Source: Comamonas flocculans
GTDB taxonomy: Bacteria > Pseudomonadota > Gammaproteobacteria > Burkholderiales > Burkholderiaceae_C
Direction: 5' to 3'
Assembly: GCF_007954405.1 (NCBI RefSeq)
Contig: NZ_CP042344.1
Coordinates: 2,232,001-2,296,000, forward strand
DNA: 64,000 bases
Made by a program: the position numbers and the translations under genes. The notes beneath the pieces were generated by a model. That model ran no database searches. It saw nothing but the letters and a program-made list of their open reading frames with translations, and had not been told where the DNA came from. Of the stretch, positions 14,559 to 59,222 are shown piece after piece (position 1 is the first letter of the stretch; the number at the start of each line of letters is the position of its first letter).

Positions 14559-14616
14559 GAGTGTTTTATGCCTCTGGCGCTTGTCCTGACTGTGCTTACA
14601 GCTATGGAATGAAGAG
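14559..14616 (+). repeat. Interspersed repeat family 1, copy A
   Basis: The region between the response regulator and trpS reads GCCTCTGGCGCTTGTCCTGA, then TGTGCTTACAGCTATGGAAT. It shares the ordered blocks (C/G)GCGCTTGTC, GCnnACAGCTATG and a trailing A-rich stretch with seven other places in this window, notably 32389-32440. Alignment was by eye, so the boundaries are approximate. Confidence 0.6.
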
Positions 14617-14629
14617 CGATTCTATGGGT

Positions 14630-15925
14630 TCAATCCACCACCAGCGCTTCAAGGGCAGCCGCGATGGTAGCAAGCGCCACCCCGGGGGCCGCCGCTGCGC
14701 CGGCCGGCAGGGCGGTGAGCGAGCCCGCATCCTGGCGCAGCTGGGCGATCAGGCGGGCGGCGTCGCGCGGCGCCGCGAAACCCTCGCTTTGCAGCAGCAG
14801 CGCACCATCGGGCGCAACCAGCTTGAAGTAGAACCTGCCATCCTTCTCGCGGTATTGCTTGAACTGCGGCAGCTCGGCGGTGGCCGCTTTGGGTTTTGCC
14901 GTCGCCGAGCGCGGGGCGGCTTGCAGCGGACGCAGGCCGACGGCGCTGCGCAGGCGCAGCAGGAAGGGGTGGGAGAGCGCGCGTGCGCGTTCGCCACCGG
15001 CGCGCAGCACCGCTTCCACCTGCTCGGGGTGGGCCATGAGGTCTTCGTAGCGTGCGCGCATCGGGGTCAGTTCCTTGTCCACGCGCTCGAACAGCAGCTG
15101 CTTGGCCTCGCCCCAGGCGATGCCTTCGGCGTAGGCGCGGCGCATGGCCTCGGTTTCTTCGGGCGTGGCGAAGGCCTGGTAGATCTGGAACAGCGCCGAG
15201 CCTTGCACCTGCTTGGGTTCGCCCGGCGCGCGCGAGTCGGTGACGATGGTGGCGATCAGCTTCTTGAGTTCGGCGCGCGTGGCAAACAGCGGGATGGTGT
15301 TGTCGTAGCTCTTGCTCATCTTGCGGCCGTCGAGCCCCGCGAGCGTGGCCACGTTTTCTTCGATGGCCGCCTCGGGCAGCGTGAAGTGCTCGCCGTAGAG
15401 GTGGTTGAAGCTCGCCGCCATGTCGCGCGCCATCTCGATGTGCTGCACCTGGTCGCGCCCCACGGGTACCTTGTGCGCGTTGAACATCAGGATGTCGGCG
15501 GCCATCAGCACCGGGTACATGAACAGGCCGGCGCTCACGCCGTCGTCGATCTCGCGCCCGGCCTCGCGGTTCTTGTCCTGCGCCGCCTTGTAGGCGTGGG
15601 CACGGTTGAGCAGCCCCTTGCCCGCCACGCAGGTGAGCAGCCAGTGCAGCTCGGGGATTTCCGGGATGTCGCTCTGGCGGTAGAAGGTGACGTGCTCGGG
15701 GTCCAGGCCGGCGGCGAGCCAGCTGGCGGCGATCTCCAGCGTGGAGTGGTTCACGCGCTCGGGCTCCTGGCACTTGATGAGCGCGTGGTAGTCGGCGAGG
15801 AAATAGAAGCTCTGCACCGCCGGGTTTCGGCTGGCGGCCACCGAGGGACGGATGGAGCCGACGAAATTGCCCAGGTGCGGCGTGCCCGAGGGCGTGATGC
15901 CGGTGAGAAAACGGGTGATGGACAT
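14630..15925 (-). CDS. trpS: Tryptophanyl-tRNA synthetase with C-terminal YegP/DUF1508-like extension
   Basis: Class-Ic synthetase that charges tRNA-Trp. The HIGH-type motif is TPHLGN at 15-20, and KMSKS is exact at 202-206. The catalytic body ends near residue 333, the usual family length. It is followed by an Ala/Pro/Lys linker (about 334-352) and an extra module of about 48 residues (YREKDGRFYFKLVAPDGALL, then QSEGFAAPRDA) whose pattern resembles the small YegP/DUF1508 domain, then an Ala-rich tail. The total of 431 residues is about 95 longer than E. coli TrpS. The site-2 protease gene lies 10 bp upstream. Confidence 0.93.
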   Translation of the reverse strand: MSITRFLTGITPSGTPHLGNFVGSIRPSVAASRNPAVQSFYFLADYHALIKCQEPERVNHSTLEIAASWLAAGLDPEHVTFYRQSDIPEIPELHWLLTCVAGKGLLNRAHAYKAAQDKNREAGREIDDGVSAGLFMYPVLMAADILMFNAHKVPVGRDQVQHIEMARDMAASFNHLYGEHFTLPEAAIEENVATLAGLDGRKMSKSYDNTIPLFATRAELKKLIATIVTDSRAPGEPKQVQGSALFQIYQAFATPEETEAMRRAYAEGIAWGEAKQLLFERVDKELTPMRARYEDLMAHPEQVEAVLRAGGERARALSHPFLLRLRSAVGLRPLQAAPRSATAKPKAATAELPQFKQYREKDGRFYFKLVAPDGALLLQSEGFAAPRDAARLIAQLRQDAGSLTALPAGAAAAPGVALATIAAALEALVVD

Positions 15926-15935
15926 GCGAAAAAAG

Positions 15936-16601
15936 TCAGTTGAGCAGGGCTACGATGGGTGTGATGAGCCAGTGGATGAGCGCGTAGCCGAACTGCATCA
16001 ACGGCATCAGCCACCAGGTGCCGACCACGCCCACCAGGACCAGCGCCATGACGATGAAGAAGCCGTAGGGCTCCAGACGCGCCACCATCTGCGCCTGGCG
16101 CCAGGGCAGCAGCCCCACGAGCACGCGCCCGCCGTCGAGCGGGGGCAACGGAAACAGGTTGAAGGCCCACATGACGAGGTTGGCGAGGATGCCGCCCTGA
16201 GCCATCTTGACGAAGAAGACCTCGCTCACGCCCAGCGCCGCGTAGAGCACCAGCAGCAGCGCCCAGCCTATGGCCTGCGCCAGGTTGGATGCGGGGCCGG
16301 CCAGCGCTACCCAGACCATGTCGCGCTTGGGGTTCCTCAGCGCGCCGAAGTTGACCGGCACCGGCTTGGCGTAGCCAAAGAGAAAGCTGCCGGCGGTGGC
16401 GAAATACAGGAACAGCGGCATCGCGATGGTGCCGATCGGGTCGATGTGCTTGAGCGGATTGAGCGTGATGCGCCCCATCCTCTCGGCGGTGTGGTCGCCG
16501 AAGTGGCGCGCGGCGTAGCCGTGGGCTGCCTCGTGCACCGTGATGGACAGCAGCACGGGCAGGGCGTAGATGAGGATGGTCTGGATGGTGTCGGCGTTCA
16601 C
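15936..16601 (-). CDS. Site-2 protease family membrane metallopeptidase (M50)
   Basis: A 221-residue intramembrane zinc protease. The zinc motif HEAAH is at 23-27 within the first membrane helix, and the second active-site motif NLFPLPPLDGGRV is at 148-160. About six membrane segments, no PDZ domain, so it belongs to the compact rhomboid-sized M50 subgroup rather than RseP. It sits just upstream of trpS in the same direction, a pairing I recall from other betaproteobacteria. Its substrate is unknown. Confidence 0.88.
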   Translation of the reverse strand: MNADTIQTILIYALPVLLSITVHEAAHGYAARHFGDHTAERMGRITLNPLKHIDPIGTIAMPLFLYFATAGSFLFGYAKPVPVNFGALRNPKRDMVWVALAGPASNLAQAIGWALLLVLYAALGVSEVFFVKMAQGGILANLVMWAFNLFPLPPLDGGRVLVGLLPWRQAQMVARLEPYGFFIVMALVLVGVVGTWWLMPLMQFGYALIHWLITPIVALLN

Positions 16602-16644
16602 GGGGCGCGATTGTCTCAGACGCGGCCCCGTACCCTGGGGCCGA

Positions 16645-17991
<1,347 letters not shown>

Positions 17992-19439: not shown

Positions 19440-19466
19440 GGTGCGTCCAGAGTGTTGCGGTATCTG

Positions 19467-19575
19467 CTCCTTCCCCCTTTGGAGGAAGGCGGGGATGGGG
19501 GCTGGCCATGCATGGCGGGGGCGCCAAGCCAGCGCCGCTGGCCCCCGCCCCTGCCCTCCCCAAAGGGGGAGGGAG
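19467..19575. repeat. Repeat family 2 (pyrimidine/purine palindrome), copy 1
   Basis: The pstB-phoU gap begins CTCCTTCCCCCTTTGGAGG, has a GGGGATGGGGGC segment, and ends CCAAAGGGGGAGGGAG, the reverse complement of its left end in outline. It matches the copies at 21265-21373 and 42669-42772 in length, ends and order of blocks. It can fold into a long hairpin within the pst-pho transcript. Confidence 0.75.
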
Positions 19576-19583
19576 TCAAAGAA

Positions 19584-21247: not shown

Positions 21248-21264
21248 GCGGTTGTGCGTTGATG

Positions 21265-21373
21265 CTCCCTCCCCCTTTGGGGGAGGGCAGGGGTGGGGGC
21301 CAGCGCTTTGGCGTGGCGTTCGCGCAGGTCGGGGCGGGCCCCCATCCCCACCTTCCCCCAGAGGGGGAAGGAG
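21265..21373. repeat. Repeat family 2 (pyrimidine/purine palindrome), copy 2
   Basis: The pstC-pstA gap runs from CTCCCTCCCCCTTTGGGGG, with GGGGTGGGGGCC, through a GC-rich centre to GGCCCCCATCCCC and CAGAGGGGGAAGGAG. The two ends are imperfect inverted repeats of about 40 bp. Same architecture as copies 1 and 3. Confidence 0.8.
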
Positions 21374-21389
21374 CAGAAACCGGAAGCCT

Positions 21390-23492: not shown

Positions 23493-23556
23493 TTTGGATG
23501 CAAAAAATGGCTCTGGCGCCCGTGGCTATTGCGCTGCCAGCTCTTGATCCAAGAGC
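23493..23556 (+). repeat. Interspersed repeat family 1, copy B
   Basis: Reads TTTGGATGCAAAAAATGGCT, then CTGGCGCCCGTGGCTATTGC, GCTGCCAGCTCTTGATCC. It shares the blocks GGCGCCCGT, GCGCTG and CAGCTnT with copies C, E and H. It overlaps the last codons of mdeB (stop at 23526-23528), so the repeat encodes the end of that protein. More diverged than the other copies. Confidence 0.5.
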
Positions 23557-26192
23557 ATTTGGCGCGCCGCATCAGCCATGTGGGCGGCATCGACGCCGAA
23601 GTGCGCGCGCAGCGCGGCGCGGGTGTCGCTGCGGCCAAAGCCGTCGGTGCCCAGCGTGCGGTAGCCGCGCCCGGCGGGGAGGTGGGCGCGCACGCTCTCG
23701 GCCACGCTGCTCACGTAGTCGCTGGCGGCGACGATGGGGCCTTGCGTCTGCGCCAGCACCTGGGCGAGCCAGGGCGCGGCGCCGCTGGCCAGGCAGGCGC
23801 GGCCGTCGCGTGCGAGTTCACTCCAGCTCGTGACGCTGAGCACGTCGGCCGCAATGCCGTCTTGCGCCAGCAGCTCGGCCGCCTGGAGCGCCTCGGGCAG
23901 GATCGCGCCCGAGGCCATGAGTGTGGCATGTTTTGTGAATGAAATCCGGCTTTCACGCCCGTCCAGCAAGCGCTGAGAGCTCTGGAACAAATAGCAGCCA
24001 CGCACCACGCCTTCGCGGGCCTCGTCGGGCAGATCGGGCTGGGCGTAGTTCTCGTTCATCAGCGTGACGTAGTAGAAAACGTCGCGCTGCTCGGCCAGCA
24101 TCTCCTGCATGCCGTGCTGCACGATCACGGCGAGCTCGCCGGCGAACGCCGGGTCATAGGCCTTGCAGTTGGGCACCGTGCTGGCCACCAGGTGACTGCT
24201 GCCGTCCTGGTGCTGCAGGCCTTCGCCCGCCAGCGTGGTGCGCCCGCTGGTGGCGCCGAGCAAAAAGCCGCGCGCGCGCTGGTCGGCGGCGGCCCAGATC
24301 AGGTCGCCCACGCGCTGGAAGCCGAACATGGAGTAGTAGATGTAGAAGGGCAGCATGGCCAGACCGTGCACGCTGTAGCTGGTGGCGGCGGCCGTCCAGC
24401 TTGCGAGCGCTCCGGCTTCGCTGATGCCTTCTTCCAGGATCTGGCCATCGCGCGCCTCGCGGTAGCTCAGGATGGAGCCGATGTCCTCGGGCGCATAGCG
24501 CTGGCCCACGTCGCTGTAGATGCCCACCTGCTTGAACAGATTGGCCATGCCGAAGGTGCGGGCCTCGTCGGCCACGATGGGCACCACGCGCTGGCCGAGC
24601 TGCGCGTCCTTGAGCAAGGCGCCGAGCATGCGCACGAAGGCCATGGTGGTGCTCATCTCCTTGCCCTGGGCGTTCAGGGCGAACCTGGCCCACTGGTCGA
24701 CGGGCGGTACGGGCAGCGGCTCGCACGCCGTCTGGCGCCGGGGCAGATGACCGCCGAGCTTTTCGCGGTGCTCGCGCAGGTAGCGCATCTCGGGGCTGTC
24801 GTCTGCGGGCTTGAGAAAGCGCAGGTTCACCGCTTCCTCGTCGCTCAAAGGCAGGTTGAAGCGGTTGCGAAATTCGATCAGCGCGGCCTCGTCCAGCTTC
24901 TTCTGGCTGTGCGTGGTCATCTTGCCCTGGCCCGCCGTGCCCATGCCGTAGCCCTTCTTGGTCAGTGCCAGGATGACGGTGGGCTGGCCTTTGTGCGCGC
25001 AGGCGGCAGCGTAGGCGGCGTGGATCTTCACCAGGTCGTGGCCGCCGCGCTTGAGGCGGTCGATCTGCTCGTCCGTCATGCCCTGCGCCAGGGCCTGGAG
25101 CTCGGGGTGCTGGCCGAAGAAGTGCTCGCGGTTGTAGCGCCCGTCCTTGGCGGCGAAGGTCTGCATCTGGCCGTCCACCGTCTCGCCCAGGGTGCGCACC
25201 AGCGTGCCGGTGAGGTCGCGCGCAAACAGCCCGTCCCAGTCGCTGCCCCACATCAGCTTGATGACGTTCCAGCCGCTGCCGGTAAACAGGCGCTCCAGTT
25301 CGTCGACGATGCGCCCGTTGCCACGCACCGGGCCGTCCAGGCGCTGCAGGTTGCAGTTGACCACCCACACGAGGTTGTCCAGGCGTTCGCGCGAGGCGAG
25401 CGTGAGTGCGCTGGTGCTCTCGGGCTCGTCCATCTCGCCGTCGCCGAACACGCCCCACACGCGCCGCGTCGCGGTGCGTCCCGTGGCGGCGTTGCGGCCA
25501 CCGCAGTCCAGCAAGCCGCGGTCGCTCAGGTAGTGCATGAAGCGCGCGTGGTAGATGCTGCTGATCGGCCCCAGGCCCATGGAGCCCGTGGGGAACTGCC
25601 AGAAGTCCGGCATGGACCAGGGGTGCGGGTAGCTGCACAGCCCGCGCGCGCCTTCGCTGGGCGCGGTGATCTCCTGGCGAAAGTGCAGCAGGTCGTCCTC
25701 GCTCAAAAAGCCTTCGAGGAAGGCGCGCGCGTACACGCCGGGTGCGCTGTGCGGCTGGAAGAACACCAGGTCGCCCCGGTGCTGGCCCGCGCCCAGGCCC
25801 TCGCGCGCATGGAAGAAGTGGTTGAAGCCGACCTCGAACAGGTCGGCCGCGCTGGCGTAGCTGGCGATGTGCCCGCCAAGCTCCCCATAGGCCTTGTTGG
25901 CGCGCACCACCATGGCCAGGGCATTCCAGCGCATCAGCGAGCCCAGGCGCTCTTCCACCGCCAGGTCGCCGGGGAAGGCAGGTTGCTCCTGCGCGGCGAT
26001 GGTGTTGACGTAGGGCGTGTTCAGGTCGGGTTGCCAGCCGATCTGCCGGGCGTGCGCGCTGCGCACCAGCGCGTCGAGGATGAAGCGCGCGCGCTCCGGG
26101 CCGTGCGTCGCCATCAAGGCCAGAAAGCCGTCGCGCCATTCGGCGGTTTCCTGTGGATCGATGTCGGTGGCGGGTGGCGGATCGAGTGTCAT
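23526..26192 (-). CDS. mdeB: Homodimeric pyruvate dehydrogenase E1-like 2-oxo acid dehydrogenase (MdeB type)
   Basis: An 888-residue thiamine-diphosphate enzyme of the AceE family. The TPP motif starts GDGEMDEPES at 250-259 and ends at the Asn in VVNCN. No aceF or lpd genes accompany it, unlike a true pyruvate dehydrogenase operon; instead it lies behind a methionine gamma-lyase gene. In Pseudomonas putida the AceE-like MdeB, next to mdeA, is a 2-oxobutyrate dehydrogenase component, and that role is inferred here, yielding propionyl-CoA. Oddity: residues about 732-755 (after RGCYLF) are encoded by a copy of the interspersed repeat and look like a roughly 10-residue in-frame insertion relative to E. 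coli AceE as I recall it. Confidence 0.85.
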   Translation of the reverse strand: MTLDPPPATDIDPQETAEWRDGFLALMATHGPERARFILDALVRSAHARQIGWQPDLNTPYVNTIAAQEQPAFPGDLAVEERLGSLMRWNALAMVVRANKAYGELGGHIASYASAADLFEVGFNHFFHAREGLGAGQHRGDLVFFQPHSAPGVYARAFLEGFLSEDDLLHFRQEITAPSEGARGLCSYPHPWSMPDFWQFPTGSMGLGPISSIYHARFMHYLSDRGLLDCGGRNAATGRTATRRVWGVFGDGEMDEPESTSALTLASRERLDNLVWVVNCNLQRLDGPVRGNGRIVDELERLFTGSGWNVIKLMWGSDWDGLFARDLTGTLVRTLGETVDGQMQTFAAKDGRYNREHFFGQHPELQALAQGMTDEQIDRLKRGGHDLVKIHAAYAAACAHKGQPTVILALTKKGYGMGTAGQGKMTTHSQKKLDEAALIEFRNRFNLPLSDEEAVNLRFLKPADDSPEMRYLREHREKLGGHLPRRQTACEPLPVPPVDQWARFALNAQGKEMSTTMAFVRMLGALLKDAQLGQRVVPIVADEARTFGMANLFKQVGIYSDVGQRYAPEDIGSILSYREARDGQILEEGISEAGALASWTAAATSYSVHGLAMLPFYIYYSMFGFQRVGDLIWAAADQRARGFLLGATSGRTTLAGEGLQHQDGSSHLVASTVPNCKAYDPAFAGELAVIVQHGMQEMLAEQRDVFYYVTLMNENYAQPDLPDEAREGVVRGCYLFQSSQRLLDGRESRISFTKHATLMASGAILPEALQAAELLAQDGIAADVLSVTSWSELARDGRACLASGAAPWLAQVLAQTQGPIVAASDYVSSVAESVRAHLPAGRGYRTLGTDGFGRSDTRAALRAHFGVDAAHMADAARQMLLDQELAAQ
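23930..23996 (+). repeat. Interspersed repeat family 1, copy C, inside mdeB
   Basis: Plus strand: GAATGAAATCCGGCTTTCAC, then GCCCGTCCAGCAAGCGCTGA, GAGCTCTGGAACAAATAG. The first block is identical over 15 bases to copy H (59167), which lies between genes. Here it is translated on the minus strand as part of mdeB (FQSSQRLLDGRESRISFTKH) without breaking the frame. Confidence 0.75.
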
Positions 26193-30676: not shown

Positions 30677-32398
30677 TCAGGCCCTCTCCTGCATCCCTTG
30701 CACCAGCAACTGCACCCGCCGCTGGCCGCGCCATTCGTTCACGTCCAGCCGGAAGGCCAGCAGCGCCTGTGCGGGCACGGGTTCGGTGCGCGAGAACCAG
30801 ATCGCGTCCACCTCCTGGCCCAGATAGCGCAGCTTGAGCTGCAGGTGGTTGTGCGCCTCGCCCACCAGGCGCTGGCTGAGCACCTGCACCTGGTCGCTGA
30901 AGGTGGGCGCGGCAAAGCCCTGGCCCCAGACTTCCAGCGCGAGCAGGTCCACCAGGTCGGTGCGCAGGTATTCGGGGGCCAGGGGACCGTCGGTTTCCAC
31001 GCGGCGCGTGAGCGTGGCAGCGTCCAGCCATTCGCTGGCCACCTGGGCAAAGGCCTGCTCGAAGGTGGCCAGTTGCGTGCGCTCCACGGTGCAGCCGGCG
31101 GCCATGGCGTGGCCGCCAAAGCGCAGCAGCACGCCGGGGTGGCGCTTGGCGATGAGGTCCAGCGCGTCGCGCAGGTGAAAGCCGGGAATGGAGCGCCCCG
31201 AGCCCTTGAGCTCGTGCGCGTGGCCCGGCGCGCCGCTGCGGGCAAAGACGAAGGTGGGGCGGTGCAGCCTGTCCTTGATGCGCGAGGCGACGATGCCGAC
31301 CACGCCTTCGTGAAAGCTCGCGTCGAACACCGCCATCGCGGGCGGCGGGTCGGCTGCTGCATCCAGTTGCGCGTCGATGGTGGCCAGCGCCTGCTCGCGC
31401 ATGCCGCCTTCGATCTCGCGGCGTTCGCGGTTGATGGCGTCGAGCTGGCGCGCGAGCTCCTGCGCGCGGCCGGTGTCGTCGGTGGCCAGGCACTCTATGC
31501 CCAGGGTCATGTCGGCCAGCCGCCCGGCGGCGTTGATGCGCGGGCCCAGCGCAAAGCCGAAGTCAAAGCTGCTGGCCTGCGCCGCCCTGCGCCCGGCGGC
31601 GGCAAAGAGCGCGGCCATGCCCGGCGGCATCTGCCCGGCGCGCACGCGCTTGAGGCCCTGGGCCACCAGGCGGCGGTTGTTCGCGTCCAGCGGCACCACG
31701 TCGGCCACGGTGCCCAGGGCCACCAGCGGCAGCAGGGGCTCCAGGCGCGGCTGGCGGGCGGCGTCGAAGCTGCCGCGCGCGCGCAGTTCGGCGCGCAGGG
31801 CCGTCAAGACGTAGAACATCACGCCCACGCCGGCCAGGCATTTGCTGGCAAAGCTGCAGCCGGGCTGGTTGGGGTTGACGATGGCGTGCGCCGCCGGCAA
31901 TTCGCCGCCGGGCAGGTGGTGGTCGGTGACGACGACTTGCAGGCCGAGTTCGCGCGCGCGCCGCACGCCCTGCACGCTGGCGATGCCGTTGTCCACGGTG
32001 ATGAGCAGCTCGGCCCCGGCCGCGGCCACGCGCTCGGCGATGGGTGCGGTCAGGCCGTAGCCGTCCACCACGCGGTTGGGCACGAGGTAGTCCACGTGCC
32101 GCGCGCCCAGCAGGCGCAGGCCGCGCAGGCCGACGGCGCAGGCGGTGGCACCGTCGCAGTCGTAGTCGGCCACGATGCAGATGCGGGCCTGGCGCGCGAT
32201 GGCGTCGGCCAGCAGCTGCGCCGCCGGCTGCGCACCCTTGAGCGTGGCGGGTGGCAGCAGCCGGGCCAGGGCGTCGTCCAGCTCGCCCGCGCTGCGCACG
32301 CCGCGCGCGGCGTACAGGCGCGCCAGCAGCGGGTGCACGCCCGCCTGCTCCAGCGCCCAGGCGCTGCGGGGCGGTACGTCACGAACCACTATTTTCAT
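30677..32398 (-). CDS. recJ: Single-strand-specific 5'-3' exonuclease RecJ
   Basis: A 573-residue DHH-family exonuclease acting in RecF-type recombination and mismatch repair. Motifs: VADYDCDGATA (D78, D80, D82), VDNG near 136, DHH at 159-161, GPRINAAGRL and RFGGHAMAAG in the DHHA1 part. The start codon lies in the sequence AGCTATGAAAATAG, which belongs to an interspersed repeat copy and also forms the stop of the upstream gene (ATGA overlap). Confidence 0.93.
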   Translation of the reverse strand: MKIVVRDVPPRSAWALEQAGVHPLLARLYAARGVRSAGELDDALARLLPPATLKGAQPAAQLLADAIARQARICIVADYDCDGATACAVGLRGLRLLGARHVDYLVPNRVVDGYGLTAPIAERVAAAGAELLITVDNGIASVQGVRRARELGLQVVVTDHHLPGGELPAAHAIVNPNQPGCSFASKCLAGVGVMFYVLTALRAELRARGSFDAARQPRLEPLLPLVALGTVADVVPLDANNRRLVAQGLKRVRAGQMPPGMAALFAAAGRRAAQASSFDFGFALGPRINAAGRLADMTLGIECLATDDTGRAQELARQLDAINRERREIEGGMREQALATIDAQLDAAADPPPAMAVFDASFHEGVVGIVASRIKDRLHRPTFVFARSGAPGHAHELKGSGRSIPGFHLRDALDLIAKRHPGVLLRFGGHAMAAGCTVERTQLATFEQAFAQVASEWLDAATLTRRVETDGPLAPEYLRTDLVDLLALEVWGQGFAAPTFSDQVQVLSQRLVGEAHNHLQLKLRYLGQEVDAIWFSRTEPVPAQALLAFRLDVNEWRGQRRVQLLVQGMQERA

Positions 32399-32440
32399 AG
32401 CTGTTCGCGCAGGTCAGACAAGCGTTTGCGCTGGAAAATG
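32389..32440 (-). repeat. Interspersed repeat family 1, copy D, at the recJ start
   Basis: Minus strand: CATTTTCCAGCGCAAACGCT, TGTCTGACCTGCGCGAACAG, CTATGAAAATAG. The blocks CGCTTGTC, TGAC, TGnGCnnACAGCTATG match copy A closely. The element encodes the last residues of the conserved unknown protein, its TGA, and the ATG plus next codons of recJ. Confidence 0.65.
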
Positions 32441-33321
32441 CTTGTAATCCTTGCGCCCAGGCCGCGATGGGTGCTGCTGAAGTGCAGGCTGCTGCGCTCG
32501 CCGCACAGCGTCAGCTCCACCGTCTCGCCGCCGGCCAGCTCTTGCGCCAGCGCGGCCACTTCGGTGGCGTCCAGCTGTTGCCAGGCGGCGGCCCAGGCGG
32601 CCCAGTCCTGGCGCTGGGCGGCCTGCAGCAGCGCCATCGGCATCCGTGGTTCGGGCCGGTGTTCGGGCAGGCGGGCGAGCATGCCCGCGCCATGGAACCA
32701 CAGCGCGTTCACCGCCGGCAGGCCACGGGCGGCGCGCGCCTCGCTCCAGGGGTGGGTGTAGAGCAGCATCTGCAGCTCGCTGTGCAGGCGTTGCAGCCGC
32801 GTGGCCTGGGGGCCGCGCGGCAGCCAGGGGCGCACGTCGCGCCCCAGCACGCGCTGCAGCGGCGCGCACTGCAGCCCGGCAAACGGCGGGCCTTGCACCA
32901 GCCAGCGCGTGGGTTCGTGGTAGCTCAGGCGGATGCCGTCCTGCGCCAGCCAGGGGGCGAGGATGTCCACCAGTGCCCGGCCGTCCTCGGCGCTCAGGCC
33001 CAGGTGCTCGGGCGGCAACAGCACCACGTGGTCGGCGCCGATCTGCCAGTGGCAGGGGCTGACCCAGGCGCAGGGCTCGCCCACGGTGCGGGTCTGCCAG
33101 GCGGCCCAGGGGGTGGCCTCGGCGGGCAGGCCCAGGGTGCGGGCCAGCGCCCGTTCGTGCGGCGGGGCGTAGTCGGTTTCGCGGCCGGCGTCGGCGCCTT
33201 GCAGGCTCAGGCGGGCGAGCAGGCGCTCCAGCCCGGGCAGGCGCAGGCTTTGCAGCGCCTGGGTGCAGCCGGGCAGATCGGCCGCGGCCATGGGAATCAG
33301 TAGATGGCGCGCTGAAGGCAT
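32395..33321 (-). CDS. Conserved protein of unknown function upstream of recJ
   Basis: A 308-residue soluble protein, no recognised catalytic motif, rich in Leu/Ala with phrases such as HLLIPMAAADLPGC, CAWVSPCHWQIGADHVVLLP and VNALWFHGAG. I recall a similar protein encoded immediately before recJ in other betaproteobacteria, sometimes labelled phosphoglycerate-mutase-like without evidence of activity. The start MPSARHLLIPM at 33321 is preferred; an ATG at 33357 would add 12 residues. The 4-bp overlap with recJ suggests co-expression. Confidence 0.75.
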   Translation of the reverse strand: MPSARHLLIPMAAADLPGCTQALQSLRLPGLERLLARLSLQGADAGRETDYAPPHERALARTLGLPAEATPWAAWQTRTVGEPCAWVSPCHWQIGADHVVLLPPEHLGLSAEDGRALVDILAPWLAQDGIRLSYHEPTRWLVQGPPFAGLQCAPLQRVLGRDVRPWLPRGPQATRLQRLHSELQMLLYTHPWSEARAARGLPAVNALWFHGAGMLARLPEHRPEPRMPMALLQAAQRQDWAAWAAAWQQLDATEVAALAQELAGGETVELTLCGERSSLHFSSTHRGLGARITSIFQRKRLSDLREQL

Positions 33322-40108: not shown

Positions 40109-40245
40109 GGCGCATGCTTCCCGTGCAGGCTGGCAGCGCCTGCCGCAGGCCGCCATGGTGGGGCATGCGGGCCGCGCAGGCAAGCAGCCCCGCCGCCGGC
40201 GCGGCCGCGCCCGGCCGAGCACGCGGCTGGGTTCAAGCCGGAATT

Positions 40246-40303
40246 TGGATGTTTTGTGCCGCAAACCCTTGCCTGGCAAGCGCTTGCAGCTATCAATAGA
40301 GAA
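40246..40303 (+). repeat. Interspersed repeat family 1, copy E
   Basis: Plus strand: GATGTTTTGTGCCGCAAACC, CTTGCCTGGCAAGCGCTTGC, AGCTATCAATAGAGAATC. It contains GGCAAGCGCTTGCAGCTAT, the best-preserved core among the copies, between the prpB-like gene and the diguanylate cyclase promoter region. It ends 5 bp from the stop codon of the prpB-like gene. Confidence 0.7.
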
Positions 40304-40308
40304 TCAGA

Positions 40309-42628: not shown

Positions 42629-42668
42629 GAAAAGGCTCTGCTTGGATGGAAGGTTTGGGTTGCTTTTA

Positions 42669-42772
42669 CTCCCTCCCCCTCTGGGGGAGAGCGGGGGTGG
42701 GGGCCAGCGGCGCAGACGGCGTTCGTGTGGCGCAAGGCCCCCATCCCGGCCTTCCCCCATAGGGGGAAGGAG
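42669..42772. repeat. Repeat family 2 (pyrimidine/purine palindrome), copy 3
   Basis: The prpC-prpD gap runs from CTCCCTCCCCCTCTGGGGG, through GGGGGTGGGGGCCAGCG, to AGGCCCCCATCCCGGC and CATAGGGGGAAGGAG. The left half closely matches the left half of copy 2 (21265) and the ends are inverted relative to each other. Confidence 0.8.
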
Positions 42773-47119: not shown

Positions 47120-48601
47120 ATGCCTTTGACACCCGAATACATCGCCCCTACCCGCCACCGTGACGCTGCCGCGGCGCTGGCCCACATCCAGCAGATCTAC
47201 CAGCGCCAGACCAGCCACCTGCGCGAGGCCATGCAGCGCTTCGTCGCCGGGGACACGCCCGGCCAGCCGGTGCGCGCCTGCTACCCCTATGTGCGCCTGC
47301 GCACCGACACCGTGGCGCGCGCGCCCTCGCGCCTGGCCTTCGGCTTCGTGCAGGGGCCGGGGCACTACGAGACCACGCTGACCCGCCCGGACCTGTTCGC
47401 CCACTACTACCTGGAGCAGCTCTCGCTGCTGCAGCACAACCACGGCGTGGAGCTGGAGGTGGGCACCAGCAACCAGCCGATACCGGTGTATTTCGCGCTC
47501 GATGCGGACGACGCGCTGGAAGGCTCGCTCGACCAGCAGCGGCGCCTGCTGCTGCGCGACCTGTTCGATCTGCCCGACCTCAACGCCATGGACGACGGCA
47601 TTGCCAACGGCACCTGGCGCCCGCGCGCGGGCGAGCCGCAGCCGCTCTCGCTGTTCACCGCGCCGCGCGTGGACTATTCGCTGCAGCGCCTGCGCCACTA
47701 CACCGGCACGCGCCCCGAGTGGTTCCAGAACTTCGTGCTGTTCACCAACTACCAGTTCTACATCGACGAGTTCGTGCGCCTGGGCCGCGCGCAGATGCAA
47801 GACCCCGCCAGCCGCTACGAGGCCTTCGTCGAGCCGGGCAACGTGCTCACGCGCCGCATGGGTCTGGCGGCGCAGCCGGCCGACGCGCAGGGCGCGCTGC
47901 CCGAGCGCCTGCCGCAGATGCCCGCCTACCACCTGGTGCGCGAAGGCCATGGCGGCATCACCATGGTGAACATCGGCGTTGGGCCGGCCAACGCCAAGAC
48001 CATCACCGACCACGTGGCCGTGCTGCGACCGCACGCCTGGCTGATGCTGGGCCACTGCGCCGGGCTCAGAACCAGCCAGCAGCTGGGCGACTACGTGCTG
48101 GCCCACGCCTACGTGCGCGAGGACCACGTGCTCGACGAAGAGCTGCCGCTGTGGGTGCCGCTGCCGGCGCTGGCGGAAATCCAGGTCGCGCTGCAGCAGG
48201 CGGTGGCCGACGTGGCGCAGATGCCCGAAGACCAGCTCAAGCGCATCATGCGCACCGGCACCGTGGCCAGCACCGACAACCGCAACTGGGAGCTGCTGCC
48301 CGACAACACCCCGCAGCGGCGCTTCAGCCAGAGCCGCGCGGTCGCGCTGGACATGGAGAGCGCCACCATCGCGGCCAACGGCTTTCGCTTTCGCGTGCCC
48401 TACGGCACGCTCCTGTGCGTCTCCGACAAGCCGCTGCACGGCGAGATCAAGCTGCCCGGCATGGCCAACCACTTCTACCGCGAGCGCGTACAGCAGCACC
48501 TCTTGATCGGCATGCGCGCCATCGAGCTCTTGCAGGCCGGCGGCGCGGCGCGCCTGCACAGCCGCAAGCTGCGCAGCTTCGCCGAAGTCGCATTCCAGTA
48601 A
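47120..48601 (+). CDS. amn: AMP nucleosidase
   Basis: A 493-residue enzyme (E. coli Amn 484) that splits AMP into adenine and ribose 5-phosphate. An N-terminal AMN domain (about 15-170, RACYPYVRLRTDT, TLTRPDLFAHYYLEQL) precedes a nucleoside-phosphorylase-fold catalytic domain (about 260-470, GITMVNIGVGPANAKTITDH, MLGHCAGLR, ALDMESATIAANG). The start MPLTPEYIAPTRH at 47120 is after the terminator, so it is an independent unit. No near SD was found. Confidence 0.92.
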   Translation: MPLTPEYIAPTRHRDAAAALAHIQQIYQRQTSHLREAMQRFVAGDTPGQPVRACYPYVRLRTDTVARAPSRLAFGFVQGPGHYETTLTRPDLFAHYYLEQLSLLQHNHGVELEVGTSNQPIPVYFALDADDALEGSLDQQRRLLLRDLFDLPDLNAMDDGIANGTWRPRAGEPQPLSLFTAPRVDYSLQRLRHYTGTRPEWFQNFVLFTNYQFYIDEFVRLGRAQMQDPASRYEAFVEPGNVLTRRMGLAAQPADAQGALPERLPQMPAYHLVREGHGGITMVNIGVGPANAKTITDHVAVLRPHAWLMLGHCAGLRTSQQLGDYVLAHAYVREDHVLDEELPLWVPLPALAEIQVALQQAVADVAQMPEDQLKRIMRTGTVASTDNRNWELLPDNTPQRRFSQSRAVALDMESATIAANGFRFRVPYGTLLCVSDKPLHGEIKLPGMANHFYRERVQQHLLIGMRAIELLQAGGAARLHSRKLRSFAEVAFQ

Positions 48602-48607
48602 AAAATT

Positions 48608-48668
48608 CCTGAAAGCATAGCTGCCAGCGCTTGCTGGGCAGGCGTCAGGGCCGGATTTGTTGCTGATT
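48608..48668 (-). repeat. Interspersed repeat family 1, copy F
   Basis: Minus strand: CAACAAATCCGGCCCTGACG, CCTGCCCAGCAAGCGCTGGC, AGCTATGCTTTCAGG. It shares AAATCCGGC with copies C and H and CCAGCAAGCGCT with copy C. Sits between the convergent amn and GMC oxidoreductase genes. Confidence 0.75.
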
Positions 48669-48701
48669 TTTGCGTTTCGGCAGCAGGCAGCCGCCGGCGC
48701 T

Positions 48702-50282
48702 TCACGCAGCCTCTTTCATCCACGCCGCAGCGCGCTCGGCAATCATCAGGGTGGGCGCGTTGGTGTTGCCGCTGACCACGCTGGGCATGACGGAAGCGTC
48801 CACCACGCGCAGCCGCTCGATGCCGTGCACGCGCAGGCGGCTGTCCACCACGTCCATCGCGCCGCTGCCCATGCGGCAGCTCCCCACCGGGTGGTAGATG
48901 GTGTCCGCATGCTGGCGGATGAAGGCCTGGATCTCGGCGTCGCTGCGCACCCCCGCCGAGGTTTCGCGCGCGCCGCGCCCGGTCAGCGCCGGCTGGCTCA
49001 GCAGCTCGCGCATGCGCTTGAAGCCGGCCACCAGGCGGCGCAGGTCGTCGGGCTCCTGCAGGAAGGCCGGATCGATCAGCGGGGCGGCCAGCGGATTGCT
49101 GCTGGCCAGGCGCACGCTGCCGCGGCTGCGCGGGCGCAGCACGCAGACATGGCAGGAAAAGCCGTGGCCGGGCACCGCGGTGCGACCGTGGTTCACCAGC
49201 TTGCCGACGACGAAGTGCAGTTGCAGGTCGGGCCGCGGCTCGCCCGGCTCGCTCCTGATGAAGCCGCCGGCCTCGGCGAAGTTGGTGGTCAGCGGACCGC
49301 GGCGCTCGCGCCGCCAGCGCCGGATGTCGCCCACGGTGCGCCAGGCCCCGGCGGGCGACAGGCCGAAGAGCTCGCGCGCGCCCGGCACGTCCCAGACCTG
49401 CACCACGTCCGGGTGGTCGTGCAGGTGCGCGCCCACGCCGGGCAGGTCCAGGGCCACGGGCAGGCCATGCTCGCGCAGGTGCGCGCCCGGCCCTATGCCC
49501 GAGAGCATCAGCAGCTGCGGGGACTGGAACGCACCGGCGCTCAGGACGACCTCGCGCTCGGCGTGCAGCGTCCTTTCCTGCCCGCCATGGCGGTAGGCCA
49601 CGCCCACGGCGCGCTGGCCCTGCAGCAGCACGCGCGTGGCATGGGCGCCGGTGATCACGTGCAGGTTGGGCCGCTGCCGGTGGGGCGCGAGGTAGGCCTT
49701 GGCGGCGGAAAAGCGCTCGCCCGCCTTGTGCGTGACCTGGTACAGCCCCACACCCTCCTGGCTGGCGCCATTGAAGTCCGGGTTGTGCGCATGGCCCGCC
49801 TGCACGCCCGCCTGCACGAAGGCGTGCGCATAGGGGTTGGGGTCGCACAGGTCCATCACGTGCAGCGGCCCGCCCGTGCCGTGCCAGGCGTCGGCGCCGC
49901 GCAGGTTGTCTTCGCCGCGCCTGAAGACCGGCAGCACTTCGTCCCAGCCCCAGCCGGCATTGCCCTCGGCGGCCCAGGCGTCGTAGTCCTCGGGCGCGCC
50001 GCGCATGTAGATCATGGCGTTGACCGAGCTCGAACCGCCCAGCACCTTGCCGCGCGGCTGGTAGCCGCGCCGTCCTCCCAGCCCGGCCTGCGGCACCGTC
50101 TGAAAGCCCCAGTTGGCCGAGCCCAGCCGGGCCAGCAGGGCCAGGCCCGCGGGGCAGTGCAGCAGCACGCTCTTGTCCACCGGGCCGGCTTCGAGCAGCG
50201 TGACCTGCACGCCGGGGTCTTCGCTCAATCGGGCGGCCAGCACGCAGCCGGCCGAGCCGGCGCCCACGATCACATAGTCCAT
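48702..50282 (-). CDS. GMC-family FAD oxidoreductase (choline dehydrogenase-like)
   Basis: A 526-residue flavoenzyme. FAD motif VGAGSAG at 6-12, GGSSSVNAMIYMRG (GMC signature 1), LSAGAFQSPQLLMLSGIG (signature 2), and active-site HPVGSCRMG with a late NTNAPTLMIAERAA. GMC enzymes oxidise alcohols; choline dehydrogenase is the usual label, but no betaine genes lie nearby, so the substrate is open. The start has CAGGAGAAC upstream. Divergent from the hydroxyacyl-CoA dehydrogenase with 99 bp between them. Confidence 0.87.
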   Translation of the reverse strand: MDYVIVGAGSAGCVLAARLSEDPGVQVTLLEAGPVDKSVLLHCPAGLALLARLGSANWGFQTVPQAGLGGRRGYQPRGKVLGGSSSVNAMIYMRGAPEDYDAWAAEGNAGWGWDEVLPVFRRGEDNLRGADAWHGTGGPLHVMDLCDPNPYAHAFVQAGVQAGHAHNPDFNGASQEGVGLYQVTHKAGERFSAAKAYLAPHRQRPNLHVITGAHATRVLLQGQRAVGVAYRHGGQERTLHAEREVVLSAGAFQSPQLLMLSGIGPGAHLREHGLPVALDLPGVGAHLHDHPDVVQVWDVPGARELFGLSPAGAWRTVGDIRRWRRERRGPLTTNFAEAGGFIRSEPGEPRPDLQLHFVVGKLVNHGRTAVPGHGFSCHVCVLRPRSRGSVRLASSNPLAAPLIDPAFLQEPDDLRRLVAGFKRMRELLSQPALTGRGARETSAGVRSDAEIQAFIRQHADTIYHPVGSCRMGSGAMDVVDSRLRVHGIERLRVVDASVMPSVVSGNTNAPTLMIAERAAAWMKEAA

Positions 50283-50381
50283 GCAGAGTTCTCCTGTCGT
50301 CTGTCTCGCCCGCAGCCTGGAGGGTCGCGGCGCACCGCTAATATCGGCCGATTGCGGGTTTTGCACCATCAGGAGAACACT

Positions 50382-51230: not shown

Positions 51231-51464
51231 GGGCACGGGGCGGCGCCGGGGCGGACCGGCGGGTCCCGCCAGCGGCCGCGATCCGGACAGCGGGGTTGCC
51301 GCGTAGCCGCGTAGCCGCGCTGTGACGGCCGGGCGGTCCCATCCGGGCCATTGCCCATTTTTGGCCATCGAGGCGGCCTGAGAGGGCTGCCTGGCATGCG
51401 CCGGAGGCTCTCTTTCCAGGAGCATCTTGCACCGTCTGAGGTACGTTTGCCCTGCCGCTTATTC
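51231..51464. other. GC-rich intergenic region without recognised genes
   Basis: Downstream of the hydroxyacyl-CoA dehydrogenase and upstream of the ohrR operator. It contains a short tandem repeat (GTAGCCGC twice near 51304-51320) and a GGCC-rich start, but no convincing ORF, hairpin-plus-T terminator or RNA gene was seen. Confidence 0.5.
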
Positions 51465-52520: not shown

Positions 52521-52979
52521 ATGACGCCGGGCATCGATCCCGCCAGCCATTTCGTGCGCCAGCATGCGCGGCTGGACGCGCTGCTGCAGGCGCATCTGCT
52601 GGAGCTGATCGGCGGCGATTTCGCGCGTGCCGGGGAAACGTTCGCACGCTGGCGCAGCGCGCTTGCCGCGCACATCGCGATTGAAGAGCGCGAGCTGCTG
52701 CCGCATCTGCCCGCCCGGGCGCGCTGGGCGGCCAAGGTGTACGTCGCCGAGCATGAGCGCATCGCGCTGCTGGCGCAGGAGCATGCAGCGCGTCTGGCGC
52801 AGGTGCTGGCCAGCCCGCCCGGGGAGGGCGCGCCGCAGCGCCGCGCGGCGCTGTGGCTGATCGACGCCGCGCATCCGCTGCGCCACGTGCTGGAACACCA
52901 CCACCAGCGCGAGGAGGGCACGCTGGCGCTGGAGCTGGCGCAGGAGCTGCAGGCGCGGGCGTGGGGCGCGCATGGCTGA
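52521..52979 (+). CDS. Hemerythrin-like domain protein
   Basis: A 152-residue four-helix protein. Candidate di-iron ligands: H15 (FVRQHARLD), H51 and E55 (HIAIEERELLPHL), H78 (AEHER) and the C-terminal HVLEHHHQREE cluster. Hemerythrin-like proteins bind O2 or iron or act in redox defence. The ATG at 52521 is preferred over a TTG at 52512. It follows ohr by 79 bp and overlaps srkA by 8 bp, placing it in a stress-response group. Confidence 0.78.
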   Translation: MTPGIDPASHFVRQHARLDALLQAHLLELIGGDFARAGETFARWRSALAAHIAIEERELLPHLPARARWAAKVYVAEHERIALLAQEHAARLAQVLASPPGEGAPQRRAALWLIDAAHPLRHVLEHHHQREEGTLALELAQELQARAWGAHG

Positions 52980-53997
52980 AGCCGGCGCCCACGCCTACGC
53001 GGCGCTCACGCCCGACGTGGTGCTCGACGCGCTGGCCGCCTGCGGCCTGCAGGGCGATGGGCGCCTGATGGCGCTCGGTTCCTACGAGAACCGCGTCTAC
53101 CAGGTCGGCCTGGACGATGGCAGCCGCGTGGTCGCCAAGTTCTACCGCCCGGGGCGCTGGAGCGCCGCGCAGATAGGCGAGGAGCACGCCTTCGCCGGGG
53201 AGCTCGCCGCGGCCGAAGTGCCCATGGTCGCGCCGCTGGCGCTGGCCGGGCAGACCCTGCACCAGCATGCGGGCTTCGCCTTTTCGGTCAGCCCCTGGCG
53301 CGGCGGGCGCATGCCGGAGCTCGACGACTTCGAGGTGCTCGAATGGCTGGGCCGCTTCATCGCCCGGCTGCACCTGGTGGGCGAGCGCCGGCCCTTCACG
53401 CAGCGCCCGCGACTGGACCTTCAGAGCTTCGCCCTGGAGCCGCGCGACTGGCTGCTGGCGCACGAGGCCGTCGCGCCCGAGGTGCGCGGTGCATGGCGCG
53501 AGGTGGTCGAAGAAGCTATTGAAGAGATAGCTGCTGGCGCAGGCGGTACGGGTGTTGCAGCCAGATTTGGCTTGCAAGATGCGCAGTTGCTGCGGGTGCA
53601 TGGCGACTGCCACCCCGGCAATGTGCTCTGGACGCCGGTGGAGGAGGCCGAGGGCGGCCCGCACTTCGTGGACCTGGACGACGCGCGCATGGGCCCGGCG
53701 GTGCAGGACCTGTGGATGCTGCTCTCGGGCGAGCGGCGCCAGCGCACGCTGCAGCTGTCGGCGCTGCTCGACGGCTACGAGCAGGTGCGCGCCTTCGACC
53801 GGCGCGAGCTGGCGCTGATCGAGCCGCTGCGCACCCTGCGCCTGATCCACTACAGCGCCTGGCTGGCGCGGCGCTGGGGCGACCCGACCTTCCCCATCCA
53901 CTTTCCGTGGTTCGGCTCGGGCGACTACTGGCGCGGCCAGGTGGCGCTGCTGCGCGAGCAGGTGCAGGCCCTGCGCGAGCCGCCGCTGATGGCCTGA
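52972..53997 (+). CDS. srkA: Stress response kinase A-like Ser/Thr protein kinase
   Basis: A 341-residue YihE/SrkA-type kinase of the APH/ChoK fold. LGSYENRVYQVGL near the N-terminus (nucleotide loop), VVAKFYRPGRW (lysine), catalytic HGDCHPGNVLW at 210-220 and metal-binding FVDLDDARMGP. E. coli SrkA counters envelope and redox death signals. Oddity: residues about 181-200 (EEAIEEIAAGAGGTGVAARF) coincide with an interspersed repeat copy and form an extra Ala/Gly-rich segment before the catalytic loop. Confidence 0.88.
   Translation: MAEAGAHAYAALTPDVVLDALAACGLQGDGRLMALGSYENRVYQVGLDDGSRVVAKFYRPGRWSAAQIGEEHAFAGELAAAEVPMVAPLALAGQTLHQHAGFAFSVSPWRGGRMPELDDFEVLEWLGRFIARLHLVGERRPFTQRPRLDLQSFALEPRDWLLAHEAVAPEVRGAWREVVEEAIEEIAAGAGGTGVAARFGLQDAQLLRVHGDCHPGNVLWTPVEEAEGGPHFVDLDDARMGPAVQDLWMLLSGERRQRTLQLSALLDGYEQVRAFDRRELALIEPLRTLRLIHYSAWLARRWGDPTFPIHFPWFGSGDYWRGQVALLREQVQALREPPLMA
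53512..53574 (-). repeat. Interspersed repeat family 1, copy G, inside srkA
   Basis: Minus strand: GCCAAATCTGGCTGCAACAC, CCGTACCGCCTGCGCCAGCA, GCTATCTCTTCAATAGC. It shares CAAATCnGGCT, CCGT, GCGCCAGCAGCTAT with the other copies. On the plus strand it is read through in frame by srkA. Confidence 0.65.
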
Positions 53998-57687: not shown

Positions 57688-57848
57688 GGCGACGCTGAAC
57701 AAGTCCCTCGCGCGCCGCGCATCCCGGCTTGCTGCGGTCTGCGGCGTTGCAAATCCTCGCGATAGCTACGGCTGTCGCTGCGGTTTGCGCCTTGCAGCCC
57801 ATCCCCAGGCTGGGCGCGCGCCATCGCGGGAACTTGTTCAGCGTCGCC
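57688..57848. repeat. 161-bp element with perfect 17-bp terminal inverted repeats
   Basis: Left end GGCGACGCTGAACAAGT (57688-57704) is exactly repeated in reverse complement at 57832-57848. Inside, GCGATAGC-TACG-GCTGTCGC forms a near-perfect central hairpin, and flanking GGCG...CAAA / TTTGCGCC blocks extend the symmetry. It fills the whole gap between two convergent stop codons. No ORF inside. It looks like a non-autonomous mobile or repeated element, and could also act as a bidirectional terminator. Confidence 0.8.
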
Positions 57849-58727
57849 CTAATCGCGCCTGAGCAGCACCGCGCCGATGGCGACGACCACGCAGACCATG
57901 GCCGCGAGGTCTTGCCAGTGCGGCCATTCACCGATCACGAAGGGTGCGCTCAGGATGCCGACCATGGGCACGGCCATCACGCTCATCGCGCTGGTGGTGG
58001 GCGGCAGCACGCGCACCAGCGCAAACCAGATCACCTGGGCCAGCCCGTAGTTGATGAACACGCTCCACACCAGGCTGGCCCAGACCGGGGCGCTGAAATG
58101 CCACTGCTGCGGCGGCTCCAGCCAGATGGCCAGCGGCCACAGCGCCAGGGAGGCCAGCACCATCATCCAGACCACCAGGGTTTCGGCCGGCATGCTCAGG
58201 TGGGCGCGGCGCATCCAGATGGTGCCCAGCGCCCAGCTGAAGGCCGCGCCCTGCATCCAGGCGATGCCGGCCGGACGCCCGGCAATCTGGGCCAGCTCGT
58301 TCCACAGCAGCAGCGTGATGCCCGCCAGGACCGCCAGCACGCCCACCAGCAGCCGTCCGGTGAGCTTTTCGCGGTAGAACAGCACCGACAGCAGCACCGT
58401 CCAGACCGGCATGGTGAAGCCCAGCGTGGCCGCGCGTCCCGCAGGCAGTTGCGCCACGCCGATGATGGACAGGGCGTGCCAGCCCAGAATGTTGGGCAGC
58501 CCCAGCACCACCACCGCGCGCCATTCGGCCCAGCCGTGCGGCAGCAGGCGCAGGCCGCGCGAGCGAAAATACAGCGCCAGCACCAGCGCGCCGCCGAACA
58601 TGGTCAACGCGCGAAAATGCAGGGGCCCCATCTCGCGCAGCGTCACCTTCATGACCGGCCAGTTGATGCCCCAGGCAAGCACCAGCAGGACGAGGCCGAC
58701 CGTTTGTCGGCGCGAGAGCAGGGACAT
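57849..58727 (-). CDS. EamA/DMT-family transporter
   Basis: A 292-residue membrane protein with about ten helices in two EamA halves; LLVLAWGINWPVMKVTLREM and LGFTMPVWTVLLSVLFYREKL are typical of the first half, and LPPTTSAMSVMAVPMVGILS of the second. Drug/metabolite exporter family; the substrate is unknown. Start MSLLSRRQTVGL at 58727, divergent from arfB. Confidence 0.87.
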   Translation of the reverse strand: MSLLSRRQTVGLVLLVLAWGINWPVMKVTLREMGPLHFRALTMFGGALVLALYFRSRGLRLLPHGWAEWRAVVVLGLPNILGWHALSIIGVAQLPAGRAATLGFTMPVWTVLLSVLFYREKLTGRLLVGVLAVLAGITLLLWNELAQIAGRPAGIAWMQGAAFSWALGTIWMRRAHLSMPAETLVVWMMVLASLALWPLAIWLEPPQQWHFSAPVWASLVWSVFINYGLAQVIWFALVRVLPPTTSAMSVMAVPMVGILSAPFVIGEWPHWQDLAAMVCVVVAIGAVLLRRD

Positions 58728-58761
58728 TGGGGGCAATCGGCGAGGGCTAGAAGGGGCGGGG

Positions 58762-59166
58762 ATGGTAACCACGGCAGCGCTGCTCGAGCGCGAGGCGCAG
58801 ATCACCGCGATCCGCGCGCAGGGCGCGGGCGGGCAGAACGTGAACAAGGTCTCGAGCGCGGTGCACCTGCGCTTTGACGTGGCCGCCTCCGCCCTGCCCG
58901 CCGAGCTCAAGCAGCGCATCCTGGCGTTGTCCGACGCCCGCGTCACCACCGAGGGCCAGGTGCTCATCAAGGCGCAGCGCTACCGCACGCAGCAGGCCAA
59001 CCGGCGCGACGCGCTGGCGCGCCTGCGGGAGCTGGTGGAGCAGGCGGCGCGCCCCGTCCTGCCACGCAAGGCGACGCGGCCCACGCGCGCCTCGCGGGAG
59101 CGGCGCCTGCAGGCCAAGCGCCTGCGCGGGGCCGTGAAAGCCTTGCGCGGCCAGCCCCGAGATTGA
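58762..59166 (+). CDS. arfB: Alternative ribosome-rescue factor / peptidyl-tRNA hydrolase ArfB
   Basis: A 134-residue class-I release-factor-like protein. GGQ at 23-25 in RAQGAGGQNVNKVSSAVHLR, and a basic C-terminal tail (RKATRPTRASRERRLQAKRL) that inserts in the empty mRNA channel of stalled ribosomes. Length and motif match ArfB (YaeJ). Start after AAGGGGCGGGG. A repeat copy follows one base after its stop. Confidence 0.93.
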   Translation: MVTTAALLEREAQITAIRAQGAGGQNVNKVSSAVHLRFDVAASALPAELKQRILALSDARVTTEGQVLIKAQRYRTQQANRRDALARLRELVEQAARPVLPRKATRPTRASRERRLQAKRLRGAVKALRGQPRD

Positions 59167-59222
59167 GAATGAAATCCGGCTGAAACGCCCGCCCATCCAG
59201 CGCATCAAGCTATGTAAAACAG
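59167..59222 (+). repeat. Interspersed repeat family 1, copy H
   Basis: Plus strand: GAATGAAATCCGGCTGAAAC, GCCCGCCCATCCAGCGCATC, AAGCTATGTAAAAC. The first 15 bases are identical to copy C inside mdeB. It fills the gap between convergent arfB and fnr. Confidence 0.78.

Follow-up and report, generated by a model that had tools for sequence, protein, structure and literature searches.

A dispersed family of ~62-bp sites in Comamonas flocculans and its relatives, with signs of selection on the DNA itself

The chromosome of Comamonas flocculans (GCF_007954405.1, contig NZ_CP042344.1) carries a dispersed family of short, rigid sites, roughly 450 per chromosome by extrapolation or ~1 per 7 kb, which we followed from a 64-kb stretch of it (2,232,001-2,296,000; hereafter the window). 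The sites are shared in place with related genomes and, judged from the pattern of substitutions, the family looks like one that column-specific purifying selection at the DNA level keeps recognisable. We consider it probable that the copies are a selected double-stranded recognition site, and a little under half of that confidence goes to a role in DNA uptake. The 3.33-Mb single-contig C. flocculans genome is labelled G000 below; G000-G008, G003 among them, are genomes of one genus, G007 is a relative with ~90% DNA identity over most of the window, and G011 belongs to another genus.

Number, setting and anatomy of the sites

An earlier note on this DNA had reported eight diverged copies in the window, and all eight are present where it placed them. 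Without gaps they match a 48-bp consensus at 30, 27, 34, 29, 36, 37, 31 and 34 of 48 positions (in the order of that note), as against 25/48 at best when the window was letter-shuffled three times. The weakest copy, at 23493, is tied at 27/48 with one other place, 51368. By the score of a 64-column matrix, the eight copies reach 42-73 bits and the place at 51360 reaches 23.6 bits. The matrix is based on a gap-free seed alignment of 35 copies and 64 columns, from which L014 was omitted for its odd spacing and L015 as the same as window copy 23932. Because all eight window copies sit among the seed rows (L001 is one of them), independent testing falls to the remainder of the genome.

The profile search that the earlier note had proposed found 65 sites of at least 16 bits in a contiguous 464 kb of G000 and none in either control, the reversed and block-shuffled sequences holding nothing at or above 10 bits. 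G007 gave 56 such sites in 480 kb. A second G000 sample of 20 evenly spaced 20-kb stretches, 28 kb of which overlap the 464-kb stretch and which has some seed copies in common with it, held 53 sites of at least 22 bits versus none when reversed. Searches of G000 by other means agree: blastn with one copy returned at least 42 matches at E≤10 (40 of 93 candidates scored), and a sequence-only profile at least 150, the weakest among the matches listed having an E value of 2.7e-8.

Sites fall equally on the two strands (33/33 in the 464 kb), and the best 150 matches are evenly distributed along the chromosome, with no uneven spread or strand signal seen among them. The settings claimed earlier, namely both orientations, convergent junctions, gene ends and gene interiors, proved correct with a simple purpose-made gene caller. 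By the same caller, 66 sites of at least 14 bits divide into 34 between codirectional genes, 11 between convergent genes, 2 between divergent genes and 19 inside genes. Convergent junctions are enriched (11 of the 47 intergenic sites versus 8.5% of intergenic bases, p=0.0016) and divergent junctions depleted (2 of 47 versus 20.8%, p=0.003). Several sites start at a stop codon and take up the entire intergenic gap.

The motif is ~62 bp long, rigid and nearly gap-free, and reads ATAGCTG-N3-GCGCTTG-N5-CAAGCG-N5-GSC-NN-ATTT-N7-AA on the reference strand, where the plus strand of the earlier note is the minus strand of the site coordinates given here. To the left of ATAGCTG lies approximately CT-N-YTGA and then an A/T stretch. 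The middle, between GCGCTTG and CAAGCG, is loosely kept, and Y-T stands between CAAGCG and GSC. An exact left-half pattern was used to choose 27 copies from other genomes, and in these the A/T block on the right also occurs as AAAA or TTTT. The AAGCG block is AATGG in three of nine aligned G008 sites (L244-L247), which may mean that the motif has shifted in that species. Copies are diverged, with a mean identity of 53% among 111 G000 sites, a closest pair at 83% and a broad score distribution with a low tail; G+C content is 43-66% in the 44 best matches.

Profile searches of further genomes bear out the suspicion that this is one genuine family across Comamonadaceae and close kin. Under stricter filters, matches at E≤1e-6 occur in 32 of 120 genomes, and in 30 of 115 genera, of the wider family, and in other families of the same order one of 16 genomes has a single borderline match.

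Conservation by place and by column

Of the 66 sites, 49 could be placed in G007 by both flanks; 17 could not, although one or both flanks were found for four of these. Counterparts of at least 12 bits were present for 47 of the 49 (44 of them at 22 bits or more), all in the same orientation and 36 with exactly 64 bp between the flanks. The two remaining places are a replaced gene and a 993-base gap. This comparison of orthologous loci, suggested earlier as a way to reveal empty sites and target duplications, yielded no clean case of either.

A site at the start of recJ extends the picture to other genera. Its offset is the same in Acidovorax, Comamonas, Giesbergeria, Simplicispira and others and is shifted in Polaromonas, and the site is absent from the Variovorax and Limnohabitans rows; one Variovorax row, L124, has the same recJ coding length as L092, counted by eye. 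Among 89 rows, which include four identical pairs, 38 have the site at 22 bits or more (35 of 85 distinct rows), and these are scattered over a RecJ tree made by a quick method, with at least 14 state changes needed. Orthologous sites are thus retained across divergences that scramble their flanks.

Given the sharing with G007, the distribution of the recJ site, and the low mean and closest identities among copies, the dispersal is old and the present pattern is one of retention and loss. The density of copies had been taken to imply an active or once-active dispersal mechanism. An ancient spreading must indeed have occurred; present activity is unsupported, with 47 of 49 sites shared with G007, no clean empty site, and no two of the 111 copies closer than 83%.

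To compare columns, we aligned 46 G000/G007 ortholog pairs and excluded four with partial gene overlap, leaving 22 non-coding and 20 coding pairs. In the non-coding pairs, identity is 0.918 over the 25 columns that carry high information in the seed alignment and 0.731 over the others, and column information correlates with identity (Spearman 0.56, p 2e-6). Each of the four bases taken alone shows the contrast, as do 21 of the 22 copies. Within the 25 columns, G007 retains the consensus letters of G000 in 94.7% of 435 cells, versus 78.7% of 319 and 79.0% of 105 cells in the rest. All 88 AGCT cells and all 88 ATTT cells are unchanged, columns 11-13 keep 37 of 66, and the spacer blocks are 0.56-0.76 identical. 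Outside sites, these words survive intact less frequently (AGCT in 60% of 53 cases, ATTT in 74% of 43).

The coding pairs show a similar contrast at third codon positions, where motif columns keep 160 of 176, other site columns 171 of 242, and flanks 280 of 373 (motif columns versus flanks, p=6.5e-6). That third positions are kept in the motif columns indicates that the constraint acts on the DNA and not only on the protein.

Sites in the window and inside genes

Site 1 (14554..14617, minus, 52.6 bits) lies between a response-regulator gene (13827-14540, minus) and trpS (14630-15925, minus), with a 48.1-bit counterpart at the same place in G007 and degenerate ones in G005 and G002. Site 2 (23493..23556, minus, 42.4 bits) scores lowest of the eight; it covers the 3' end of an aceE-type gene (23526-26192, minus) and has a degenerate 20.6-bit counterpart in G007. 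Within the same gene, site 3 (23932..23995, minus, 65.3 bits; 56.2 bits in G007) codes a variable loop, CYLFQSSQRLLDGRESRISFTK, which is 10 amino acids longer than in solved pyruvate dehydrogenase E1. Site 4 (32385..32448, plus, 53.4 bits) codes the C-terminus of the minus-strand gene upstream of recJ and contains the ATGA stop/start overlap with recJ itself (30677-32398, minus).

Site 5 (40242..40305, minus, 66.7 bits) is intergenic and adjoins a prpB-like gene (40309-41172, minus); it is present in G007, where its other flank is rearranged. Site 6 (48605..48668, plus, 72.5 bits), which is among the 17 unplaceable sites, lies between convergent genes, an AMP nucleosidase gene ending at 48601 and a GMC-oxidoreductase-like gene on the minus strand; in G005, a site adjoins the left flank. 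Sites 5 and 6 border two intervals, 39002-40248 and 48599-50370, over which G000 and G007 do not align, reflecting gene replacement and gene loss. Site 7 (53515..53578, plus, 50.5 bits; 40.8 bits in G007) is within an SrkA/YihE-type kinase gene (52972-53997, plus) and codes the loop preceding RVHGDCH, which is 10 amino acids longer than in solved YihE. Site 8 (59162..59225, minus, 61.0 bits) overlaps the end of an ArfB gene (58762-59166, plus), beyond which lies a convergent gene, and element-like sequence is found at the orthologous junction in G007, G005, G004 and G008. A weak ninth site (51360..51423, minus, 23.6 bits, E 0.0087), which was not in the earlier list, lies between divergent genes.

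The window also holds a second repeat family of ~110-145 bp, with G+C-rich arms in inverted order (CTCCCTCCCCCTTTGGGGGAGGG...), at 19440-19583, 21251-21389 and ~42664-42772. This family may have moved recently, since G007 lacks two of its three copies at the orthologous place; for the third, the interval has a similar length in both genomes. Sequence like it directly adjoins two of the 62-bp sites (L010 and L016).

The intragenic sites, about 3 in 10, code loops, linkers or protein ends. Their hosts include the aceE-type enzyme, SrkA, GlmU, CobU, PepN, an AddA-like helicase, and a 736-amino-acid open reading frame (L283:13463-15673) whose second half is MnmH. The site of the latter stands just before that half, and we take the first half to be SelD. 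The addA-like helicase gene (L287:12261-15611) carries three sites, of 62.8, 38.9 and a weak 26.6 bits. Site-coded loops are 5-11 residues longer than in solved homologues, and in one flavoprotein the loop is 15 residues longer than in its 60%-identical G007 counterpart; for a cobD-like gene, a solved homologue was sought and none was found. The lengthening of 5-15 amino acids is not the ~21 expected for in-frame insertion of a whole element, and the sites lie in open frames. A simple 62-bp insertion was sought in recJ, aceE, srkA, glmU, cobU, pepN and a flavoprotein gene, and fits in none. The sole gap-1 case, at 2352884, has a gene product only 60% identical in G007.

Possible roles of the sites

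The sites would have spread across the chromosome long ago, and purifying selection or biased renewal since then could have held the short blocks (ATAGCTG, GCGC, AAGCG, GSC, ATTT and AA) at fixed spacing over ~62 bp, in a motif that would work in either orientation and in coding as well as non-coding DNA. We infer a trans-acting reader, a protein or machine that would contact the site along about six helical turns. The likeliest such reader may be the natural-transformation machinery, in which case the site would be a long DNA-uptake sequence, similar in principle to those of Neisseria and Haemophilus, kin DNA would be preferred and recombination would renew the sites; this identity and this role are weaker steps in the argument than the reader itself. 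In a lineage that lost DNA uptake, sites would no longer be renewed and would decay in place by substitution. Put in full, Comamonadaceae would have a 62-bp DNA-uptake signal, the longest self-recognition sequence for natural transformation, sitting at ancient places that include loops of core enzymes and decaying whenever a lineage loses uptake. We offer this fuller version tentatively, as one that may well be wrong.

G003 has lost nearly all its sites: 228.6 kb hold 2 of at least 22 bits, versus 32 expected. Two mapped ones, of which the first is at the start of recJ, have decayed in place, at 64 and 66 bp, and the recJ site, which scores 33-56 bits in eight genomes of the genus (G000 included), scores -15 there. 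The DNA-uptake channel ComEC was the one prior idea tested for the identity of the reader. Its domain, PF03772, occurs in 31 of 32 genomes, and the sole genome without it is G003. G003 retains the genes that flank comEC on one side in G000; an inversion has its edge at the expected start of comEC, and 20 kb at that locus held no remnant of the gene. All seven site-rich genomes of the genus that were tested have comEC (G000, G001, G002, G004, G005, G007 and G008), and all 15 site-rich genomes examined have PF03772, in pieces in G011. In that single-contig genome, comEC is split over several reading frames (L346) with the aceE-like and srkA frames open, and 80 kb not chosen for sites hold 3, versus 6 in 60 kb of G012. 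The pattern in G003 and G011 fits sites renewed by transformation. We regard it as a lead and not as proof, because it comes from one genome without the gene and one with a broken copy, while 16 site-free genomes have PF03772.

A number of observations weigh against uptake or against a selected site more generally. No reader protein was found, one candidate, ComEC, having been tested, and no uptake sequence known to us comes near ~62 bp in length. Having comEC is not sufficient for having sites, as PF03772 is present in every one of the 16 site-free genomes tested from other genera, and a correlation with ComEC outside the genus is rejected. G003 is a 210-contig assembly with 5% contamination, and G011 still has 127 of its 132 scored matches genome-wide at E≤0.001. 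Only one genome pair, G000/G007, gives a strong result in the block test; replicate pairs point in the same direction without significance (G004/G008, n=9, p=0.09; G005/G002, n=5, p=0.11), their pooled 25 columns giving 0.874 versus 0.804 (p=0.006). In G004/G008, the AAGCG block (36/45) drifts and is kept no better than its surroundings. The grouping into four blocks was partly drawn from the same data, although the 25-column set is independent of them. Taken whole, non-coding sites are 0.804 identical, as against 0.81 for 30-bp flanks and 0.879 for alignable intergenic DNA. Site 6 is missing from G007, at a junction where the neighbouring gene is also lost, and the 5-15 extra amino acids in the loops of site-bearing genes hint at some insertion.

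The same evidence of selection, from columns and from third codon positions, would also suit a chromosome-organising site to which a dedicated nucleoid, topology or segregation protein binds at intervals of ~7 kb, as would the even spread over both strands, the enrichment at convergent junctions and the depletion at divergent ones. We think this explanation unlikely: a candidate protein is lacking, the sites showed neither uneven spread nor strand preference, and by itself it leaves the absence of ComEC from the site-losing genome unexplained.

It seems improbable to us that the sites are functionless, decaying remains of an ancient non-autonomous mobile element resembling repetitive extragenic palindromic (REP) sequences or miniature inverted-repeat transposable elements (MITEs). 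Hundreds of dispersed copies, extra loop residues at intragenic sites, a broad score distribution with a low tail, losses in many lineages, whole sites conserved no better than their flanks and weak replicate pairs could all be due to such decay. However, neutral decay gives neither the column contrast of 0.918 versus 0.731 nor protected third codon positions, and orthologous sites are retained over divergences that scramble their flanks. MITEs are likewise short, non-coding and dispersed; here no target duplication or clean empty site was found among the 49 placeable sites. As for terminal inverted repeats of the MITE type, only the core is near-palindromic, mirror pairs outside it having been examined for pairing only. 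A plasmid or phage origin was also considered, and blastn with one copy found no match in plasmids or phages.

The near-palindromic core, GCGCTTG/CAAGCG, could form the stem of a structured RNA or a single-stranded DNA hairpin, in which changes from AA to GG would keep G-U pairs on one strand. The covariation proposed earlier as a check on such a hairpin is absent: 19 candidate pairs across 111 sites do no better than shuffled ones (z -1.8 to 1.9), and we reject the hairpin or RNA reading on that account as very improbable. RNAalifold on the 35 seed rows gives an energy of -0.09, no Rfam match in the window reaches the gathering score, with four weaker matches in six loci and none over a site, and between codirectional genes 21 sites follow the gene orientation versus 13 against it (p=0.23).

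An active selfish repeat, mobilised in trans by a REP-associated tyrosine transposase (RAYT) or another transposase, would explain copy number and dispersion, and most site-rich genomes examined from other genera hold some match to Y1_Tnp, but it is already largely contradicted and hardly credible: Y1_Tnp is absent from six of eight site-rich genomes of the genus (G000, G001 and G004-G007, two of them single-contig, with G001 86% and G006 84% complete; G002 has one match under the cut-off and G008 one over), the site-free G009, G013, G015 and G021 do have it, there is no clean empty site among 49, and the closest pair is 83% identical. The family does recall REP sequences, their bacterial interspersed mosaic elements (BIME) and hairpin-forming doublets (REPIN) in its high copy number, intergenic bias and near-palindromic core. 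It differs in lacking covariation, a RAYT in G000 and any visible mobility, in having about 3 in 10 copies inside genes, and in that the presence of sites is uncorrelated with Y1_Tnp. With Y1_Tnp missing from those six genomes and no compensatory changes in 111 sites, we reject a REP/RAYT assignment.

A selected recognition site, read by the uptake machinery or otherwise, can be compared with the DNA uptake sequences (DUS) of Neisseriaceae and the uptake signal sequences (USS) of Pasteurellaceae, whose cores are ~9-12 bp. Like these, the family has hundreds of copies in both orientations, in coding and non-coding DNA and at fixed places, in large excess over chance (65 versus 0 in 464 kb); as in USS, A/T blocks are spaced from a G+C core. 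In one genome, loss of sites coincides with absence of the ComEC domain. In contrast to those short cores, blocks extend throughout ~62 bp, at ~1 site per 7 kb and mostly at gene ends and in the gaps between genes. The family possibly works like DUS or USS, but we do not class it as either because its length fails the core definition.

Like the present sites, Rickettsia palindromic elements occur within the coding frames of core enzymes, where they take up loops and linkers, on either strand and in more than one frame; here loops are only 5-15 amino acids longer, third codon positions are kept in motif columns, and most sites are outside genes. The Beta-proteobacterial repeat element (BRE), as described in PMC3110155, is likewise dispersed in Comamonadaceae with some copies inside open reading frames. 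According to that text, it is 75-91 bp at full length, has a mean G+C content of 69% in Bordetella, is often tandem, and numbers 1-29 copies per listed genome. By description, not by letters, the present family differs in being ~62 bp, single and 43-66% G+C, with several hundred copies.

We found no text containing the sequence words of the motif, and nothing joining Comamonadaceae with a dispersed intergenic repeat or with an uptake sequence and natural transformation; in the text of PMC3733652, the betaproteobacterial terms sought did not occur. Several hundred DNA-level constraints in and between ordinary genes thus appear undescribed in the literature searched. If they serve uptake, a large environmental family would gain a recognition signal for gene exchange among kin. 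If a chromosome protein binds them instead, they would form an architecture system common to the family, and G003 would be a natural experiment in its loss. Bacterial repeats that are short and dispersed should not be assumed to be inert or selfish.

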